A stretch of DNA of 64,000 bases from Herbidospora daliensis (GTDB taxonomy: Bacteria; Actinomycetota; Actinomycetes; Streptosporangiales; Streptosporangiaceae). The position numbers and the translations under genes are program-made. This document shows, piece after piece, positions 31,199-42,560 of this stretch (position 1 is the first letter of the stretch; each line of letters begins with the position of its first letter). The notes below the pieces were generated by a model. That model worked only from the letters and a program-made list of their open reading frames with translations, was not told the DNA's origin and made no database searches. Location of the stretch: NCBI RefSeq assembly GCF_001570585.1, contig NZ_BBXF01000004.1, forward strand, positions 434,001-498,000, in the 5' to 3' direction.

Positions 31199-33148
31199 TT
31201 AGTCGGCTTCGGGGCAGACGGTCTCGGCGCGCGGCTTGTAGACCGTCTTCCAGTCCTCGGGGGGCTCCACGGTGCCGTCGAGACGCACCCGCTCACGGGT
31301 CGTCACGATCGTGAACCCGGCGCTGCCCGCCACGGGCACGCAGCCGGCCGCGGGGCCCTGGGTCGGCAACATGGAGGTGAACCGGGTGCGCTCGCTCTGA
31401 GTGATCTTGACGTCGAAGGTCTTGGTCCCCCACAACGACACCACCATCTCGGTGTCGGAGGCGGACGCCTGGATGAGCACCCCGTAGTCGGTGTTGTTGC
31501 GCCAGACCAGGTCGGGTCCCGGGTAGGAGACGGCCACCTCGAGCCCGGCGGGATAGGGCGGCAGGAACGACTGGTGCGCCACCGCCTCGACGATCTCCAG
31601 GCCGCTGAGGAGGGCCGCGTTGTAGAGGACGGTCCCGGCGACCGAGACCCCGGGCACGTCGCGGCCCTGTTCGCCGCGGATGTCGACCTCCTCGGCGGGC
31701 CCGGCGTATCCGGGGCGGCCCTCGCGGAGCCCGGTCGCCTGGTTGAGCGAGAACGTCTCGCCGGGGCGGATGATCAGGCCGTTGACGCGCCGCGCGGTCT
31801 CCTTGATGTTGGTCACCCGGGGCTGGCAGCAGCTGTACCGCATGTCGACCCTGGTCAGCTGCTGTTCGATGCCGATCGCCGCGGCTTCCTTGTCGTCGAG
31901 GCCGGGCTTGAGCAGGGTCATCGGCACGGTCACCGTACGCTCGCCCTGGCGGCCGAGGACGGCGATGATCTGGGCGCCCAGCTTGGAGGTGTCGATCCCG
32001 ATGCCCGGCTTCCCCGGCACCAGTTCCGGCCGTCCGTCGTCGATGACGAAGGTCGCGTCGCGGGGCGACTCGCCGGCGGGCACGAACCGCATGCCCCGCG
32101 TCGCCACGGCCGCGTCGAAGCGGGCCTCCAGCCCGCCGGTGTCGCCGGGCACGAAGCTCAGCGCCGCCGCGATGTCGACCGGCGCGAGCTCCATCGAGGT
32201 GCCGCCGTACGTCAGCGTGACCGGCGCCGCGACCGCCCTGCGCGCCCAGGCCACCGCCCGGTTCACGCCCTCGCGGGTGGCGCGGGGATCGGCCTCGACG
32301 GGCTTCACGTCGACGATGATGTCGGGCTTCAGGTAGGCGTCGCGCACCGCCTCGACGACGCGCGGCACGTCGAGCGCGGTGCCCTTCTTGGGGTAGACCG
32401 GCTCGGGCCGCAGGCCGTCGAAGGTGACGTCGCCCTCGACCATCGCCTGCTCCATGGCCCGCGCCACCTGCGTCGAGACCACCTCGCCGAGCCGCCCGCT
32501 GTCGACCCGGACGACCGGGACGACCTCGCGCCCGCCGGTCATCGACCGCCAGATGTCGACCGGGCTGGGGAAGCCGATGGGCAGGGCCCGCACGGTGGCC
32601 GGGATGTCGATCGACAACCCGCTGCGCTCGGGGCTGATGCGCTCGCTCGTGGTGCCGTGGCGTACGACGATGGCGTTGGTCGCCGCGCTGACCAGCCCGG
32701 TCTTCAGCCGGTTGCTCGCTTCCTGGGCGTTCATGCCGCCCACGTCGACGCCGAGCACGGTCGTGCCCGGGTAGACGTTGCCGGCCATCAGGAAGGCGGG
32801 CACGGCGTAGAGGAAGACCAGCAGCCCGCCCACGACGAGCAGGGCCGACCGCACCCAGCGGAACCCGGGCCCGTCTTCCTCGGGCAGGTCCTCGACCTCG
32901 GCGGGCAGCGGCGCGATGGTGACCTTGCGCGGCGCGGCGACGGGCCAGACCTCGACCTTGGCCGGGGGCGGTAACGACGTCTCGGGGGGCGGCGACTTCA
33001 CGAGGGGGGCGCTGCCGAAGATGTCGGACGTCACGCCCGGGGGCAGCGTGCCGCCCGCGCGAACCGGGTGTTTACGTGCGGAGACCGCCTCAGAGTCCGT
33101 CCCGAACGGATCCGTAGGCGGGTCGATGGACGCTTCGGCGTTCCGCAC
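31199..33148 (-). CDS. VanW family protein with peptidoglycan-binding-like repeats
   Basis: A 649-residue bitopic membrane protein: cytoplasmic Pro-rich N-terminus of about 80 residues, one membrane helix (SALLVVGGLLVFLYAVPAFL), extracytoplasmic PG_binding_4 (YoaR-like) domains in the middle (VLGVDVGGMNAQEASNRLKT, and further copies around residues 210-400), then a VanW domain at the C-terminal third (VTNIKETARRVNGLIIRPGE, TGLREGRPGYAGPAEEV). VanW proteins occur in glycopeptide-resistance clusters but are widespread, and their role is unresolved. GTG start with GGAG 8 nt upstream. The 440-bp region upstream holds only repeat copy B, the gatB terminator and promoter-like sequence. Confidence 0.9.
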   Translation of the reverse strand: MRNAEASIDPPTDPFGTDSEAVSARKHPVRAGGTLPPGVTSDIFGSAPLVKSPPPETSLPPPAKVEVWPVAAPRKVTIAPLPAEVEDLPEEDGPGFRWVRSALLVVGGLLVFLYAVPAFLMAGNVYPGTTVLGVDVGGMNAQEASNRLKTGLVSAATNAIVVRHGTTSERISPERSGLSIDIPATVRALPIGFPSPVDIWRSMTGGREVVPVVRVDSGRLGEVVSTQVARAMEQAMVEGDVTFDGLRPEPVYPKKGTALDVPRVVEAVRDAYLKPDIIVDVKPVEADPRATREGVNRAVAWARRAVAAPVTLTYGGTSMELAPVDIAAALSFVPGDTGGLEARFDAAVATRGMRFVPAGESPRDATFVIDDGRPELVPGKPGIGIDTSKLGAQIIAVLGRQGERTVTVPMTLLKPGLDDKEAAAIGIEQQLTRVDMRYSCCQPRVTNIKETARRVNGLIIRPGETFSLNQATGLREGRPGYAGPAEEVDIRGEQGRDVPGVSVAGTVLYNAALLSGLEIVEAVAHQSFLPPYPAGLEVAVSYPGPDLVWRNNTDYGVLIQASASDTEMVVSLWGTKTFDVKITQSERTRFTSMLPTQGPAAGCVPVAGSAGFTIVTTRERVRLDGTVEPPEDWKTVYKPRAETVCPEAD

Positions 33149-33455: not shown

Positions 33456-33552
33456 CGTTGCGGCGGGACGCGGGAGCGGGGGCGGGCGCCAAGCGCGGCG
33501 GGACGCGGGGGCGGCGGGCGGGGCCGGGGTGGGCGGAGCCGTAACGGAAGAA
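33456..33552 (+). repeat. Intergenic repeat copy B (GGCGGAGCCGTAACGGA family)
   Basis: The core GGCGGAGCCGTAACGGA is at 33532-33548. The last 43 bp (33510-33552) are identical to copy A at 2653-2695. The outer block is more diverged (GGGGGCGGGCGCC). It sits just beyond the gatB terminator and upstream of the VanW gene. Confidence 0.78.
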
Positions 33553-33588: not shown

Positions 33589-35094
33589 CTATTCGCTGAC
33601 GCCGAGCTTCTCGAGGATGAGGGCGCGGGCGCGGCCGGCGTCGGCCTTGCCCCGGCTGGCCTTCATGACCCCGCCCACGAGCGCGCCGACGGCGGCGATC
33701 TTGCCGTTGCGGATCTTGTCGGCGGCGTCGGCGTTGTCGGCGATCACCTGGTCGATGATGGCCGACAGCTCGCCCTCGTCGTTGACGATCTTCAGGCCGC
33801 GGGCCTCGACGACCTCGTCGGGCGAACCCTCGCCCGCGAGCACGCCTTCGAGCACCTGGCGGGCCAGCTTGTCGTTCAGCGCGCCCGACTTCACCAGCTC
33901 GGTCACCCGCGCGATCTGCGCCGGGGTGATCGGCAGCTCGGCCAGCGCGACGCCGTTCTCGTTGGCGCGGCGGGCCAGCTCGCCCATCCACCACTTGCGC
34001 GCGTCGGCCGCCGGGGCGCCCGCCTCGACGGTCGCCTCGACCAGCCCGAACGCGTCGGCGTTGTGCATCGCGGCCATGTCGAGGTCGCTGACGCCCCACT
34101 CGGCCTGCAGCCGCGCGCGCCGCACCGACGGCAGCTCGGGCAGCTCGGCCTTCAGCTGCGCCACCCATGCGGTGTCGGGCGCGATCGGGACCAGGTCGGG
34201 CTCGGGGAAGTAGCGGTAGTCCTGCGCCTCCTCCTTGGAGCGGCCCGAGGTGGTCAGCCCGGTGTCCTCGTGGAAGTGGCGGGTCTCCTGGATGATCCGG
34301 CCGCCCTCGGCCAGGATCGCGGCCTGCCGCTCGATCTCGCCGCGGACCGACCGCTCGACGCTCCGGAAGGAGTTGACGTTCTTGGTCTCGGTCCGGGTGC
34401 CCCACTCGCTCGACCCGCGCGGCATCAGCGAGACGTTTACGTCGCAGCGCATCGACCCCTGGTCCATGCGCACGTCGGAGACCCCGAGGGAGCGCATGAC
34501 CTCGCGCAGCTCGGTGGCGTAGGCGCGGGCGACCTCGGGCGCGAGCCGGTCGGTGCCCTCGATCGGCTTGGTGACGATCTCGACCAGCGGGATGCCCGCC
34601 CGGTTGTAGTCGACGATCGAGTGGTCGGCCCCCTGGATCCGGCCGGTCGCCCCACCGACGTGGGTCGACTTGCCGGTGTCCTCTTCGAGGTGGACCCGCT
34701 CGATCTCGATCCGGACCGTCTTGCCCTCGACGGTGATGTCGAGGTAGCCGTCGAAGCAGAGCGGCTCGTCGTACTGGCTGATCTGGTAGTTCTTCGGCAT
34801 GTCCGGATAGAAGTAGTTCTTCCGGGCGAACCTGCACCACTCGGCGATCGAGCAGTTGAGAGCCAGGCCGATGCGGATCGTCGACTCGATCGCGGCCGCA
34901 TTGGCGACCGGGAGCGCACCGGGGAAGGCCAGGCAGGTCGGGCAGACGTGGGTGTTCGGCGGGGCGCCGAAGGTGGTCGGGCAGCCGCAGAACATCTTCG
35001 AGTTGGTGCCGAGTTCGACGTGGGTCTCCAGGCCGAGCACCGGCTCGAACCTCTCCAACGCCTCGTCGTACGGCATGAGCGTAGGAGTGCTCAT
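33589..35094 (-). CDS. gatB: Asp/Glu-tRNA amidotransferase subunit B
   Basis: The 501-residue kinase/tRNA-recognition subunit of GatCAB, which converts Glu-tRNA-Gln (and Asp-tRNA-Asn) to the amide. Signature [15 protein letters not shown], zinc-type Cys cluster ([21 protein letters not shown]), [18 protein letters not shown], and a C-terminal YqeY-like helical domain. The ATG at 35094 overlaps the stop of the preceding TOPRIM-like gene (ATGA), so gatB translation is coupled to the foreign-looking module rather than directly to gatA. Confidence 0.97.
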
Positions 35095-35678
35095 AGGTAA
35101 CCGAGTCCCTTCAACACAGTGTTCGTCCGCGTGACCCAGTCCTTGTAGGCGGGAACCTGGGCCAGCGTGTCGAGATCGATGGTCTGTCCGATTCGTTTTG
35201 CGTAGTCTGCGGCGTCGCCCTTGCGGGGGATGACGTCGTCGAGCACCTTCTTCGGGTCGCCGACGCCCTCGACGTCTCTCGGCCGCGCCGGAAGGACATC
35301 GAGATTCGCCCCTCGCACGTCGGCCCACGCCCGGCGATCGGCCAGCATCCAGGCTTCCGTCTCCTTGACGGGGACCAGGCCGATCACCGGTGCCCGTAAC
35401 CGGCAGGCGCCGATGACCTGCTCGGCCTTGTGCCGTTCCTTCAAGTCGTTGTGTACGAACAACACGTGGCAGTCGCCGGATAGTTCGGCCAGAGCTTCGG
35501 CGACGCTGGTGTGATCGCGGATGGTGCGGCACGAGCCGATCTGGGTCGGTTCGACGTCGACCACGCTGGTGGCCGATTCCAGCGTGAGTTCGCGAAGCTG
35601 GCGGTAGATGACCGCGCCGAGGAAATCTTCGTCCTCGCGGCCCTCCGCGACCAGACCGGGCACCAGCGGGCGAGCCAT
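35091..35678 (-). CDS. TOPRIM-like DUF4276 family protein, partner of the AAA ATPase
   Basis: 195 residues. Features fit the OLD/DUF4276 TOPRIM-like group: [11 protein letters not shown] (residues 10-20, acidic EGxxD start of the fold), [11 protein letters not shown] (D78), the diagnostic ETEAWMLAD (106-114) and [10 protein letters not shown] (141-150). Such proteins are putative metal-dependent nucleases paired with ABC/AAA-type ATPases in phage-defence or abortive-infection modules. The ATG at 35678 overlaps the ATPase stop (ATGA) and its stop overlaps gatB's start. Activity and family name are inference from motifs. It lies inside the gatCAB operon. Confidence 0.78.
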
Positions 35679-36871
35679 CAGACCGTTCCGACGGTGCTCA
35701 AGAAGGCCCGGACCTGACGCGGCGAGACGAAGGTGCCCGGCTCGCCCTCGTCACGGACGGGCTTGGCAACCGTGACCCGGGAGACGCGGTCGTTCTCAGG
35801 GTCGACGCGCACAGCCGTGTTCAGGAAGATCAACGATTCACGGCGCAGCCGGTAGAGCTCCGAGACGACCACCGGCGAGTGGGTGGTCATGATGACCTGC
35901 CGAAGCGGCTGATTCGCCCAGCCGGGGCTGTTGAAATCGGTGACCTTACGCTCGATCCGGCGCAACAACTCAGCGAGACGGCTGGGGTGGAGACCGTTCT
36001 CGATCTCCTCGATCAAGATCACACCAGGATGATCGGGATCGTGGAGCGCGGCGAGCAGTCCGAGTATGCGGAGCGTCCCGTCAGAGAGAAGCCTGCTGGA
36101 CACCCTTCCCTCGCCGTCGACGAGGACATCGAAAAGCCATTCTCCCCGCCGCTCATCCAGATAGGGCTCGATTCCGACCACGTCAGGGGTCAACGCCAGA
36201 AAGTCGTTGACCAGATCGTCGAAAGCGCTCGTCGAGTGGAGTCGCCCCAGAACGGCCGCCAGGTTCCTGCCGTCGGAGTCGACCGCACCCAGGTCGGCCC
36301 CGTCTGCCGCCGCCCGCATTCGGCCGGGATCGGGTTGATAGAGGCGCCAGGTCTCGCGCGGCCGGTTCACGAGCGCGCTTATCAAATCCCAGTCGATCTT
36401 GGTCGCGCCCAGAATCCGCTCAGCGGATTCGGCAGCGAGATCGGCGATCCGCCGAGCGTCCGCGGGTAGATGATCAATGTGCCGAAGGCCCTCGTCCAAG
36501 GTGAGGAATGCCTCGCCTGCGCGCGCGACAGCGTTGAACCTGCCGTCGCCGAACGTGACGTTCTTCGACCTGGGCCCGCCGATGTAGGTCACGGCCAGCA
36601 GGTCGGCGTCGACGTGGGTCAACGACTCCGCCGCGACCTGGAAGTTCTCTACCGGCGATCCCTTGCTGACATGGTGGAAAAGTTCTGGCGAACGACCCCG
36701 GGACGACTCGGTCAGCGCTTTTCCCAGATTCAATCCCCGTAGAAAAGCCAGCGCGTCGAAGAAGTTCGACTTTCCGCTTGAGTTGGGGCCCACCAAGGCA
36801 AGAAGGGGCGGCACGTCCAGCTCGAAATCCAGGAACGACTTGAAGCCGTCGATCCGAATATGAGTGATCAT
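35678..36871 (-). CDS. OLD/SMC-like AAA ATPase (AAA_15/AAA_21)
   Basis: 397 residues beginning [20 protein letters not shown]. Walker A is GPNSSGKS (28-35). An ABC-signature-like [10 protein letters not shown] follows late in the protein, then Walker [14 protein letters not shown] (D-loop Asn-Gly-Leu-His) and the switch His in [14 protein letters not shown]. This is the RecF/OLD-type layout found in OLD, AbiL and PARIS-type ATPases. GGAGGG lies just ahead of the ATG at 36871. It starts 32 bp after gatA and overlaps the TOPRIM-like gene. Base composition here looks visibly less G/C-biased than in flanking gatA and gatB, hinting at acquisition. Confidence 0.88.
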
Positions 36872-36903: not shown

Positions 36904-38397
36904 CTACAGGGCCGGAGCCTTGGAGAGCAGCGGCCCGCCCCAGCGGGACTCGAAGGCCCGCTCCACCGCGGCGCCCACCCGGTAACACCGGTCGTCACCC
37001 AGAACGGGAGCCATGATCTGCAGGCCGACGGGCAGCCCGTCTTCGTCGGCCAGGCCACACGGCACCGACAGGGCCGCGTTGCCGGCCAGGTTCGACGGGA
37101 TGGTGCACAGGTCGGCCAGGTACATGGCCATCGGGTCGTCGGCGCGCTCGCCGATCGGGAACGCCGTCGTCGGCGTCGTCGGTGAGATCAGCACGTCGAC
37201 GTGCTGGAACGCGGCCTCGAAGTCACGCGAGATCAGGGTGCGGACCTTCTGGGCCGAGCCGTAGTAGGCGTCGTAGTAGCCCGAGGAGAGCGCGTAGGTG
37301 CCGAGCATGATGCGGCGCTTGACCTCGGGGCCGAAGCCGGCCGCCCGGGTCAGGGCCATGACCTCTTCGGCCGAGCGGGTGCCGTCGTCGCCGACCCGCA
37401 GGCCGTAGCGCATGGCGTCGAAGCGGGCCAGGTTCGAGGAGCACTCGGACGGCGCGATCAGGTAGTAGGCCGGCAGCGCGTAGGTGAACGAGGGGCACGA
37501 CACCTCGACGACCTTCGCCCCGAGGGATTCGAGCAGCTCGACGGCCTCCTGGAAGCGGGCGAGCACGCCCGGCTGGTAGCCGTCGCCGCCGAACTCCTTG
37601 ACCACGCCGACGGTCAGCCCGGCGACGTCGCCCTGGCGGGCGGCCTCGACGACGGACGGCACGGGCTGGTCGATCGAGGTCGAGTCCATCGGGTCGTGGC
37701 CGGAGAACGCCTCGTGGAGCAGGGCGGCGTCGAGGACGTTGCGGGCGAACGGGCCCGGGGTGTCGAGCGACGACGCGAAGGCGATCAGGCCGTAGCGGGA
37801 GGACCCGCCGTAGGTCGGCTTCATGCCGACGATGCCGGTCACGGCGGCGGGCTGGCGGATCGAGCCGCCCGTGTCGGTGCCGGTCGAGAGGGGGGCCTCG
37901 TAGGCCGCCACCGACGCCGACGCCCCGCCGGACGAGCCGCCCGGGATGCGGGTCAGGTCCCACGGGTTGTGGGTCGGACCGTAGGCCGAGTTCTCGGTCG
38001 AGGAGCCCATCGCGAACTCGTCGAGGTTGGTCTTGCCCAGGATGACCAGCCCGGTCTCGCGCAGACGGCGGGTGACCGTCGCGTCGTAGGGCGGCCGCCA
38101 GCCTTCGAGGATCTTCGATCCGGCCGTGGTGGGCATGTCGGTCGTGGTGAAGACGTCCTTGTGCGCGATCGGCACGCCGGCCAGCGGGCCCAGCTCTTCG
38201 CCGGCGGCGCGCTTGGCGTCGACGGCGGCGGCCTGCGCGAGCGCCGACTCGGCCCCCACGTGCAGGAACGCGTGGACGCGGTCTTCGACGGCGGCGATCC
38301 GGTCGAGGTGGGCCTGCGTCACCTCGACGGCCGAGACCTCGCCGGACGCGATCAGGGACCCCAGCTCGGCGGCCGTCTTCTTGATCAGCTCGCTCAC
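36904..38397 (-). CDS. gatA: Asp/Glu-tRNA amidotransferase subunit A
   Basis: The 497-residue amidase subunit that releases ammonia from glutamine. Amidase signature with the Ser-Ser-Lys triad: [17 protein letters not shown] (Lys), [16 protein letters not shown] (Ser) and [15 protein letters not shown] (cis-Ser). GTG start overlaps the gatC stop (GTGA). gatA is followed by the ATPase/TOPRIM pair and only then by gatB. Confidence 0.97.
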
Positions 38398-38693
38398 GCC
38401 TCCTCCCCGAGGATGCGGGGCACGCGGAAGCGGTCGTCCTCGACGGCGGGCGCGCCGGAGAGGGCCTGCTCGGGCGTGAGGCTGGGCGCGACGACATCGG
38501 GCCGGAACACGTTCGTCAGCGGCAGCGCGTGCGAGGACGGCGGGATGTCGGCGGTGGCGACCTCGGCGACGCGGGCGACCGCGCCGACGATCTGGTCGAG
38601 CTGGGCGGCGAAGTGGTCGAGTTCCTCGTCGGCCAGCGCCAGCCGGGACAGCCGGGCGAGGTGAGCGACCTCTTCGCGGGTTATGGCAGACAT
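38394..38693 (-). CDS. gatC: Asp/Glu-tRNA amidotransferase subunit C
   Basis: 99 residues, the small stabilising subunit wrapping the GatA-GatB interface: [39 protein letters not shown] and the C-terminal FRPDVV...FRVPRIL pattern. First gene of the operon, ATG at 38693. It overlaps gatA by 4 bp. Confidence 0.96.
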
Positions 38694-38769: not shown

Positions 38770-40887
38770 TTATTCCACCCTGACCGTGGCCATCGGCAGC
38801 CGCAGCCGTGAGCGCAACCACACGACGGCCTCCTCGGCCGGCATGGGCTCGGCGAGCCACCACCCTTGCCCGGCATGACAGCCCATGCCCCGCAATTGCG
38901 CGGCGATGTCGGCCGATTCCACCCCTTCGGCCACGGCGCGCAATCCGAGCGACCGGACCAGGTCGATGATCGAGCGCACGATCCGCTCGTCGTCGGCCGA
39001 CTCCCCCAGTTTCCGGACGAACGAGGCGTCGATCTTCACCTCGTCGACCTGGAGGCGCTGCAGCCGTACGAGCGTCGAATAGCCCGTGCCGAAGTCGTCG
39101 AGCGCGAGGGGCACGCCCAGTTCGGCCAGCGTGCGGATGGTGTCGGCCGAGTAGGCCTGGTCGGTCATCAGGATGCGCTCGGTGACCTCCAGGTGGATGG
39201 CCTTGGCGGGCAGCGAGTAGCGGGCCAGGCCGGCCGAGAGCTGGTCGGGCAGGCCCGAGTCGAGCAGGTCGCGGGCCGACACGTTGACCGAGATCGGGAT
39301 CTCCAGGCCCGAGTCCCACCAGCGGGCGGCCTGGTCGAGGGCCTTGGCGATGACGTACTGGGTGAGCTCGCGCATCAGGTAGGACTGCTCGGCCAGCGGG
39401 ATGAACTCGCCGGGCGAGACGGGGCCGCGTACCGGGTGCCACCAGCGCAGCAGCGCCTCGACGCCCTCGACGCGGCCGTCCTGGAGGGCGACCTTGGGCT
39501 GGTAGTGGAGGTCGAGTTCGGCGCCGTCGATGGCCCGGCGCAGGTCGCCGAGCAGGCTGAGGCGCTCGGGTGAGTTGCGGTCGCGTTCGGCGACGTAGAA
39601 CTCGACGCCCGAACGGGCCTCCTTGGCCATGTACATCGCCACGTCGGACCGCTGGAGCAGCAGCTCGAAGTCGGGGGCGTGGTCGGGGTAGAGGGCGATG
39701 CCGATGGACGCGTCCAGATCGAAGGTCATGCCTTCGAGCCGGACCGGCTCGGTCAGCGCGACCCGCAGGCGGGAGGCCACCTCCTTGGCGGCCTGGGCGT
39801 CGCGGATCTGCGGCAGCAGGACGGCGAACTCGTCGCCGCCCAGTCGGGCGACGACGTCGCCGGGCCGGACCGAGTGGGTCAGCCGGTGGGCCACGATCTT
39901 GAGCAGCAGGTCGCCGACCGGGTGGCCCAGGGTGTCGTTGACCTCTTTGAACCGGTCGAGATCGAGCAGCAGCAGGCCCACCCGCTCGTCGGCGCGGGCC
40001 TCGGCGAGCGCCTCTTCCGTACGGAGAATGAGCAGTTTGCGGTTCGGGAGACCGGTCAGGCCGTCGTGCATCGCCTGGTGGTCGCGGCGCATCGACAACG
40101 TCGCGGTGAAGTAGACGGCCGCCAGCGGCGCCACGAACAGCGGCACCAGCCCGGCCGAGTGCTCCATCACCACCACGACCAGCGGCGACAGGCCCAGCAG
40201 CGCCCCGTAGACGAGGCCCTGCGGCAGCAGCGAGGTCTTGAGCACGCGGAGCACGGTCTTGCGCTCGTGCAGGGCCACCGCGCCGCACACCAGCAGGCCC
40301 CTGACCAGGAAGTACGCCAGCCCGGCCAGCAGGATCGCGGGGATGTCGGCCCCGGTGGGCGTCCAGAGGTTCATCGGCCGGGAGTGCACGCCGAACATGC
40401 CGAACGTGACGGCGGCGGCCAGGCACGCGAGGGTGACCTGGGCGATGTTGAACGCGATCCGGTGCCAGGCCCGTTTGTGGACGAGCCCGCTGACCAGCAT
40501 CGCGACGGCCTGCATGATCGCCGCAGCGGACAACCCGTAGTGCATCAGCACTGCGAACGTGAACATCGTCGAGGTGGGGGTGCCCCCGACGAGGGCCGAC
40601 GAGCTCACCATCACCGGCCGGAGTTCGCCCAGCACGACCAGGACGACCAGCACCCAGAAGAGCGGGGCGGCGCCGAGCAGCGCCAGCTCGGGGCCGCCGA
40701 GCCGGACGGTCGCCACGACGAGGGCGGTGAAACCGATCGTGATGATCGCGGCGAAGTAGGTCCACAGGGGCGAGCCGAGCCGCGGCCCGGCGTCCCGAGT
40801 GTCGGGCGGCGCGGGGGCACGGCCAGTTGGTCCGGTCGAGTCGCCGATCTCAGGACATGGCATGAGATGGCGCGCAATTGCAGTCAT
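38770..40887 (-). CDS. Membrane-bound composite GGDEF-EAL c-di-GMP protein
   Basis: About 705 residues. Some 7-8 membrane helices lie in residues 35-270, then GGDEF (VARLGGDEFAVLL intact; the RPGD just before it fits an I-site) and EAL (LHYQPKVALQDG, GVEALLRWWHP, LDDFGTGYSTLVRL) with intact catalytic motifs. There is no PAS domain, unlike the paralogue at 26-29 kb. From memory, Streptomyces RmdB, a membrane GGDEF-EAL phosphodiesterase acting in development, sits near gatCAB and ligA. The position matches, but orthology is inference. Start uncertain: ATG 40887 is preferred, TTG 40905 possible. Confidence 0.9.
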   Translation of the reverse strand: MTAIARHLMPCPEIGDSTGPTGRAPAPPDTRDAGPRLGSPLWTYFAAIITIGFTALVVATVRLGGPELALLGAAPLFWVLVVLVVLGELRPVMVSSSALVGGTPTSTMFTFAVLMHYGLSAAAIMQAVAMLVSGLVHKRAWHRIAFNIAQVTLACLAAAVTFGMFGVHSRPMNLWTPTGADIPAILLAGLAYFLVRGLLVCGAVALHERKTVLRVLKTSLLPQGLVYGALLGLSPLVVVVMEHSAGLVPLFVAPLAAVYFTATLSMRRDHQAMHDGLTGLPNRKLLILRTEEALAEARADERVGLLLLDLDRFKEVNDTLGHPVGDLLLKIVAHRLTHSVRPGDVVARLGGDEFAVLLPQIRDAQAAKEVASRLRVALTEPVRLEGMTFDLDASIGIALYPDHAPDFELLLQRSDVAMYMAKEARSGVEFYVAERDRNSPERLSLLGDLRRAIDGAELDLHYQPKVALQDGRVEGVEALLRWWHPVRGPVSPGEFIPLAEQSYLMRELTQYVIAKALDQAARWWDSGLEIPISVNVSARDLLDSGLPDQLSAGLARYSLPAKAIHLEVTERILMTDQAYSADTIRTLAELGVPLALDDFGTGYSTLVRLQRLQVDEVKIDASFVRKLGESADDERIVRSIIDLVRSLGLRAVAEGVESADIAAQLRGMGCHAGQGWWLAEPMPAEEAVVWLRSRLRLPMATVRVE

Positions 40888-41120
40888 CGTTGAGAAACCC
40901 CCCAAGAGGTCACTATGGGAGGGTACGGCCTACGGGCCACTTCGCGAAACCGCTTGGGCACGTTGCGTTACTGGATATTTCGTGCGATGGATTGATCTAG
41001 CACGTTCGCACTGAAAGTTTCAGATGCCCGGATAGCCGTTTCCACCGTGTTGCCTGGGTGTTTCGTTCGGGCGGCCTCGCCTAATCCAGGCTGGGCCTTC
41101 AGGTGCCCGCGATCTGGTGA

Positions 41121-42560
<1,440 letters not shown>

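Follow-up and report, generated by a model that had tools for sequence, protein, structure and literature searches.

The question raised by this locus is how a pair of genes resembling a candidate defence system came to reside, in many actinomycetes, inside an essential translation operon, since defence genes are usually located in islands or on mobile elements. The stretch of DNA analysed, hereafter the window, comprises 64,000 nucleotides (nt) of Herbidospora daliensis (contig NZ_BBXF01000004.1, positions 434,001 to 498,000). Between gatA and gatB, it holds on the minus strand a gene for an SMC/PtuA-like ATPase of HEC-01A type, type A allele (35678..36871; 397 amino acids (aa), ATG start), followed by a gene for a HEC-01B/DUF4276-like protein (35091..35678; 195 aa), a putative TOPRIM-like metal-dependent nuclease. 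The anatomy of this two-gene cassette and its site-restricted, alternating behaviour are established with high confidence. Its interpretation as an immune-type module of the HEC-01 family with a diversifying sensor, resident between gatA and gatB, is moderately probable.

Distribution of the cassette and its two types

The survey covered 699 genomes of three families (200 of the window's family, 250 of that of Actinoplanes sp. TFC3 and 249 of that of Streptomyces sp. SID3343), and was carried out with a profile built from 13 DUF4276 proteins (alignment A1). At the overall strong cut-off (E-value <= 3e-30), 78 HEC-01B loci were found, 77 of them in the gatA-gatB gap and one beside gatA. In the window's family, where 64 of the 200 genomes gave a profile match at 1e-5, there are 52 strong places (E < 1e-33) spread over 51 genomes, one of which has two in tandem, and all 51 loci lie in the gap. 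The split match of genome G141 and the 3'-end remnant of G140 are likewise in the gap, so that the pair or its remains are found there in 53 of the 200 genomes, including one scar (G140) and two damaged copies (G141 and G088). The Actinoplanes sp. TFC3 family contributes 16 strong places (E <= 1.3e-42), 15 of them in the gap; the remaining one (L235) adjoins gatA, and no gatB was found in the further ~18 kb fetched (L262). The Streptomyces sp. SID3343 family has 11 strong places (E <= 2.4e-30), every one of which sits in the gap.

The weaker matches behave differently. None of those fetched has a gat gene nearby: 13 of the 18 weaker places in the window's family (E 8e-18 to 1e-6), 5 of 15 in that of Actinoplanes sp. 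TFC3 and 10 of 13 in that of Streptomyces sp. SID3343, that is, 28 of 46. The split between strong and weak matches is partly built in, as the profile was made from gat members, but the lack of strong matches elsewhere is not. In a class sample of 393 genomes, overlapping the window-family set, three weak places were added, and every strong one belonged to the window's family. Moreover, in a tree of 111 sequences built by a quick method, the 83 gat rows (which include L235 and duplicates under two locus names) part from the 28 non-gat rows on one branch with a Shimodaira-Hasegawa-like approximate likelihood ratio support of 100. The gat-associated proteins thus form a distinct HEC-01 clade confined to the gatA-gatB gap in the genomes searched.

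By eye, other genes were seen in this gap at five loci of other actinomycetes (L050, L065, L098, L103 and L177), mostly on the opposite strand; they include repetitive secreted-looking proteins and a peptidase-like gene.

Within this fixed address, two types of cassette alternate among close relatives. In the window's genus, of which seven genomes were compared, GatA is 97.8-99.0% and GatB 96.2-99.0% identical; at the gap, three genomes (G000, G004 and G005) have the type A pair, three others (G001, G003 and G006) a type B pair only 27-31% identical to it, and the last (G002) a scar of ~110 bp. Each type forms a single clade within the genus, with support 100 for the A cassettes and 99 for those of type B, and both types therefore appear to be maintained there. 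On a tree of GatA plus GatB for 53 loci (34 A, 16 B, two of a third kind and one tandem; first 15 GatB columns omitted), 13 changes between A and B were counted, at least nine of them forced by well supported branches. Loci were labelled by their position in the DUF4276 tree and by the query they matched best, the A label being broad (L177, L179 and L182 lie outside the main clade). Shuffling the labels gave a mean of 15.8 changes for A (38 of 500 shuffles as low as observed) and of 13.8 for B (191 of 500); cassette type thus hardly tracks the gat genes.

Both exchange at the locus and differential loss from tandems are possible origins of the alternation. If ancestral A+B tandems had lost one or the other member, no exchange of alleles would be needed; one genome (G039, locus L171) does carry two pairs in a single gatA-gatB gap, the first A-like and the second of type B, and there is little recombination signal in the flanks. 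Only one of the 53 loci is a tandem, however, and each of the 13 changes would require a tandem ancestor, which leaves differential loss a real possibility but a rather unlikely one.

Patchy presence and type alternation led to the rejection of an ordinary housekeeping gene pair. The preliminary description of the locus, prepared from the sequence alone, had named housekeeping-like conservation of the two genes in all relatives as the observation that would count against a captured defence module; the distribution is instead patchy, the two types alternate and the core of the ATPase is hypervariable.

The ATPase and its DUF4276 partner

The ATPase finds its best PADLOC model in HEC-01A (PDLC04184, 3.9e-78, top of 122 PADLOC models matched) and also matches Pfam AAA_21 (3.1e-33). 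Its sequence contains what we take to be a Walker A motif (aa 28-35), a signature region (aa 263-266), a Walker B region (aa 284-289) and an H-loop histidine (His331), and, among 82 ATPases from gat loci with lengths of 330-480 aa, each of these four motifs is retained in 75-80. The predicted structure (mean predicted local distance difference test score (pLDDT) 70.5) resembles retron/Septu PtuA and SMC heads in Foldseek, with E-values down to 2.8e-14 and template modelling scores of ~0.4-0.5.

The conservation of this protein is uneven. In the type A set of the seven-genome genus, its type B set and a Microbispora pair, alignment columns 1-40 are 95-100% identical, columns ~42-180 fall to 0-30% in the worst 20-column windows, apart from a better conserved patch (30-85%) at approximately columns 61-80, and identity returns to 60-100% from column ~240. 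In the window protein this core corresponds approximately to aa 42-180 (36332..36748, minus strand), delimited by such windowed identities and by low model confidence, pLDDT being below 50 at aa 49-73 and 101-158. Pairwise comparisons were made with 74 ATPases, after exclusion of four without the motifs, of lengths outside 330-480 aa and of four duplicates. Of the 162 window-family pairs with C-part identity >= 0.70, 152 have a core more divergent than the C-terminal part, the median identities over the 162 pairs being 0.92 for the N-terminal part, 0.65 for the core, 0.79 for the C-terminal part, 0.73 for the DUF4276 protein and 0.92 for GatB. In genus g65, six type A genomes (two of them named Microbispora records) show identities of 0.48-0.55 in the core, 0.90-0.96 in the ATPase C-part and 0.90-0.98 in the DUF4276 protein (14 of 15 pairs listed for all three). 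No convincing case of mosaic ATPases sharing cores across genera was found. Judging from this pattern, we propose that the core may be a ligand-sensing insert. A conserved host ligand is disfavoured because the core is hypervariable.

The second protein finds its best PADLOC model in HEC-01B (PDLC04210, 6.8e-35), which matches all 13 members of alignment A1 at E <= 0.001. Pfam DUF4276 matches the window protein at E 2e-5, with 25.4 bits against a cut-off of 30.2 bits, and is matched at E <= 0.001 by 11 of the 13 A1 proteins, the window's included (best 3.5e-11). In the model (mean pLDDT 88) strands and helices alternate. TOPRIM domains carry a glutamate after strand 1 and a DxD motif after strand 3. 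The acidic residues of the DUF4276 protein are conserved, in gat (n=81) and non-gat (n=26) rows respectively: E12 in 77 and 25, D16 in 78 and 25, D78 in 70 and 26, E108 in 79 and 26, D114 in 81 and 26, and E137 in 78 and 26. The second acidic motif reads HxD, however, where the TOPRIM definition has DxD. The acidic motifs alone make a TOPRIM-like protein plausible; the fold assigned in the preliminary description was confirmed neither by Foldseek (PDB and BFVD) nor by profile comparison with PDB sequences.

As for traces of the DUF4276 protein in viruses, none of 90 pattern matches in viral contigs was confirmed, and the single match in phage records was distant (E 1e-6), with 25.9% identity along the full length of the query.

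The junction with gatB, cassette loss and what they imply

In the window, the operon reads gatC, gatA, ATPase, DUF4276-like gene and gatB, all on the minus strand. The flanking genes are gatC, the first of the operon (38394..38693; Pfam GatC, 2.4e-20), gatA upstream (36904..38397; Pfam Amidase, 3.4e-158), overlapping gatC by 4 nt, and gatB downstream (33589..35094; Pfam GatB_N, 9.6e-112, and GatB_Yqey, 1.2e-43). The ATPase starts 32 nt after the gatA stop; its own stop shares 1 nt with the DUF4276 start, and the DUF4276 stop overlaps the gatB start by 4 nt (ATGA), so that the gatB start codon lies over the last codons of the cassette. The 3' end of the DUF4276 gene (35091..35111, minus) contains the Shine-Dalgarno-like AAGGGA (35106-35111) ahead of this stop. 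The open reading frame coordinates and the Pfam matches agree with the two co-oriented genes initially described, both overlaps exist, the motifs of the two proteins were found as quoted, and the reported looser base composition corresponds to a dip in G+C over the pair (~0.63-0.68, with ~0.70-0.74 in most flanking windows). Acquisition of the pair by the gat operon, already suggested at that stage, is likely. A search for sigma-70-like promoters and terminators found none between positions 33500 and 38900, such a search being uninformative for actinomycetes. The neighbourhood is otherwise ordinary: a VanW-like protein (31199-33148, minus), a GGDEF/EAL protein (38770-40905, minus) and a GH6 cellulase with CBM2 (41139-42560, plus).

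The connection with gatB recurs in other genomes. A 4-nt overlap with the start codon in the gatB frame is present at 21 of 34 type A loci (L168 probably owes it to a chance start codon), and an 8-nt overlap at 14 of 17 B loci, counting the B copy of the tandem. A Shine-Dalgarno-like sequence, mostly AAGGGA or GAAGGA, lies near the end of the DUF4276 gene at 42 of 53 loci. A tail motif of the DUF4276 protein occurs at 41 loci, and its glycine codon is GGA at 38 of them, compared with 140 of 744 glycine codons in the 53 genes, a count which includes the 38 and comes from related loci, not independent samples. From these sequences, the tail of the DUF4276 gene probably carries the ribosome-binding site of gatB. 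In 12 of the 20 short-gap loci fetched, gatA and gatB are only 2-26 nt apart and no remnant was found; the cassette therefore seems to substitute for a tight gatA-gatB junction.

The cassette has been lost several times, leaving scars which keep the gatB start region and the DUF4276 tail. Among 89 short gaps, ten gave remnant matches at E <= 0.05, two of them from the same organism and one (L211) of only 9 residues. An open frame leading from an ATPase-like start to a stop that overlaps gatB by 4 or 8 nt is found in the lineages of four genera: g23 (L201-L204), g10 (L210, identified from the frame and not by the remnant search), g1 (L026) and g61 (L187). The frame of genus g23, a leader of 31 codons that loss of the cassette apparently left behind, is kept open before gatB in four genomes; L206 has no such scar frame, and L205 holds an unrelated frame only. 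As a control, 16 of 58 short gaps of >= 40 nt have a frame ending over the gatB start, nine of which are remnants. In-frame scars were accordingly dropped as evidence of selection, given the few independent events and the similar frame in the seven other control gaps. The preliminary description had expected loss of the module to be costly; this is at odds with the repeated losses, in which the gatB start region was retained.

Gene fusions also occur: L185 encodes a full-length ATPase-DUF4276 fusion, and in L183 the two genes are fused via a deletion. At L233 (genome G568) the DUF4276 frame runs without a stop into GatB, giving an open frame of 727 aa, possibly a fusion, or simply a frame in which no stop precedes the gatB start codon.

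If gatB depended on the cassette, the latter could also be selfish, bringing the cell no benefit and persisting since translation of gatB needs its 3' end. Site restriction, the several scars that retain the start of the ATPase as well as that region of gatB, and off-site copies on two Streptomyces plasmids would fit such an element. Nevertheless, losses recur, and any dependence is therefore no strong trap; the motifs for catalysis and nucleotide binding are conserved, diversification is concentrated in a single part of one of the two proteins, and the gaps of the seven-genome genus hold the two cassette genes only, with no recombinase found. A purely selfish cassette is thus improbable.

The same overlap with gatB, together with the restriction of the clade to the gat locus in three families, could point to a regulator or quality-control partner of GatCAB which senses tRNA amidation or the state of translation and is kept beside gatA and gatB for that reason. 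Such a partner would hardly be expected to be absent from most genomes searched, to be lost repeatedly to scars, to vary so strongly in its ATPase core, or to alternate within one genus between types ~30% identical while GatA and GatB remain 96-99% identical; its family match, moreover, is a candidate defence system. We regard this function as improbable too, marginally more so than a selfish cassette. Finally, chance presence in a gap that merely tolerates insertions is strongly disfavoured, for, although other genes were seen by eye to occupy the gap elsewhere, the whole clade is confined there (77 of 78 strong loci, against none of the 28 weaker homologues fetched).

Proposed role and relation to known systems

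We infer that the cassette and the gat operon most likely share a transcript, its expression following that of the operon, while its last codons would supply the ribosome-binding site of gatB, often with start-codon overlap, replacing the direct junction and leaving the operon unbroken. The ABC/SMC-like ATPase would act as a sensor, with the hypervariable insert recognising a ligand from phage or foreign nucleic acid, or a product of infection; it may then activate the DUF4276 protein, which, as a putative metal-dependent nuclease, would block infection. Close relatives would exchange or sort A and B cassettes and ATPase cores at the fixed address, and loss of the cassette would leave a scar keeping the gatB start region. 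A defence role is, on the whole, moderately probable.

The non-gat cousins bear on this role through their surroundings. A PADLOC scan of ten proteins taken from six such loci revealed defence-type neighbours at two of the six: a type IIG restriction-modification enzyme at L253, and matches to BrxHI and PD-Lambda-2_C at L258. At a third locus, L197, the neighbour is a MAD3-like ATPase, so that two or three of the six have a defence-type neighbour. Off-site members of the gat clade were sought in plasmid records, four of which had a match and three of which were looked at. The 11.85-Mb record of Nonomuraea gerenzanensis has the pair in the gat gap, and the other two, large linear Streptomyces plasmids (L263, NZ_CP108714.1; L264, NZ_CP108701.1), carry gat-clade copies. 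The ATPase match of these copies is without the N-terminal part holding Walker A; they are genuine exceptions to the site restriction, apparently degenerate, and may be transfer vehicles or relics.

Several observations weigh against the proposed role. HEC-01 has only candidate status in PADLOC, no phenotype is known for the window pair, and no defence genes adjoin it. No TOPRIM fold was found by Foldseek at E <= 0.001 in PDB or BFVD, and the best match in the profile search of PDB sequences reached only E 0.09. The contrast between core and C-part vanishes in the other two families (42 pairs, 0.75 for both) and is seemingly absent from a type A sub-lineage with a 362-aa ATPase (pair G188/G159; core 0.90, C-part 0.86). 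The flanking gat DNA bears almost no type-linked signal, apart from a slight effect over the initial 150 nt of gatB, and exchange by recombination is therefore not directly seen. The seven non-remnant gaps with leader-like frames point to chance or other causes, and the two plasmid copies lie off-site. Among the cousins, five of the ten neighbours (every protein taken from L188, L236 and L238, plus a single one from each of L253 and L197) had no PADLOC match, and one scanned protein (L258:2908-4977) is the HEC-01A ATPase itself.

The immune-type interpretation can be carried further, to a locus under trans-generic balanced polymorphism in which two old cassettes and their cores are exchanged, linked to the start of gatB; the nuclease might then target tRNA, with GatCAB co-expressed for recovery or restraint. 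This extension is tentative and, at present, unlikely; if true, immunity, tRNA amidation and allele exchange would be physically linked.

What matters in either case is that a candidate-defence clade is resident in an essential translation operon, where it apparently even encodes the ribosome-binding site of the next gene, and that its proposed sensor region keeps diversifying while two types alternate among close relatives. Strains with near-identical gat genes and differing ATPase cores, along with the scars, constitute a natural experiment on what ATPase-nuclease pairs recognise. The same strains also inform on how housekeeping operons accommodate immunity.

With regard to known systems, the nearest is HEC-01 (Hma-embedded candidate 1), which reportedly comes from a guilt-by-embedding screen, a defence neighbourhood being its route of discovery and not a structural criterion. 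The window pair has the same best-matching A and B models and the same arrangement of adjacent genes on one strand. It differs in lying inside gatCAB and not in or beside defence systems, in forming its own clade among the homologues collected, and in the site restriction, alternating types and, in the window's family, hypervariable ATPase core of that clade. Several Hma-embedded candidates, HEC-06 among them, show antiviral activity (PMC12988326), while most putative defence candidates (PDCs) of the core set await validation, HEC-01 being unnamed in the passages concerned of that paper; the available portions of PMC8565338 do not mention HEC. A literature search, to which preprints and most subscription journals were outside, found nothing on DUF4276 or on a gat-embedded defence module, and is weak to that extent.

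The initial assignment to an OLD, AbiL or PARIS defence pair holds as far as a defence-type ATPase with a putative nuclease is concerned; as family names the three were rejected, HEC-01 models scoring better in PADLOC. Identity with MAD3 of MADS was likewise discarded (NCBIfam NF047739, 95.5 bits against a cut-off of 420). PARIS (AriA/AriB) is a two-gene system of ATPase and nuclease, and the window pair shares this logic; the AriA model matches its ATPase at 2.5e-33, more weakly than HEC-01A, and none of the 15 PADLOC families that the DUF4276 protein hits at E <= 1 is AriB. OLD/Gabija GajA and retron/Septu PtuA have an ABC/SMC-type ATPase in common with it. In OLD/Gabija, ATPase and TOPRIM are joined in one chain, whereas the window has two genes and one relative (L185) a full fusion; the gat gap, moreover, is without the helicase, reverse transcriptase or HNH partner of these systems. 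Allele-swapping specificity loci, such as those of hsdS type, have a fixed address, conserved ends and a swapped or hypervariable recognition part. The cassette would resemble them in its fixed address, conserved ends and variable part; it differs in lying in an essential translation operon, and swapping would here be deduced only indirectly. The family is thus a known candidate, and what is new is its arrangement and its evolutionary behaviour.

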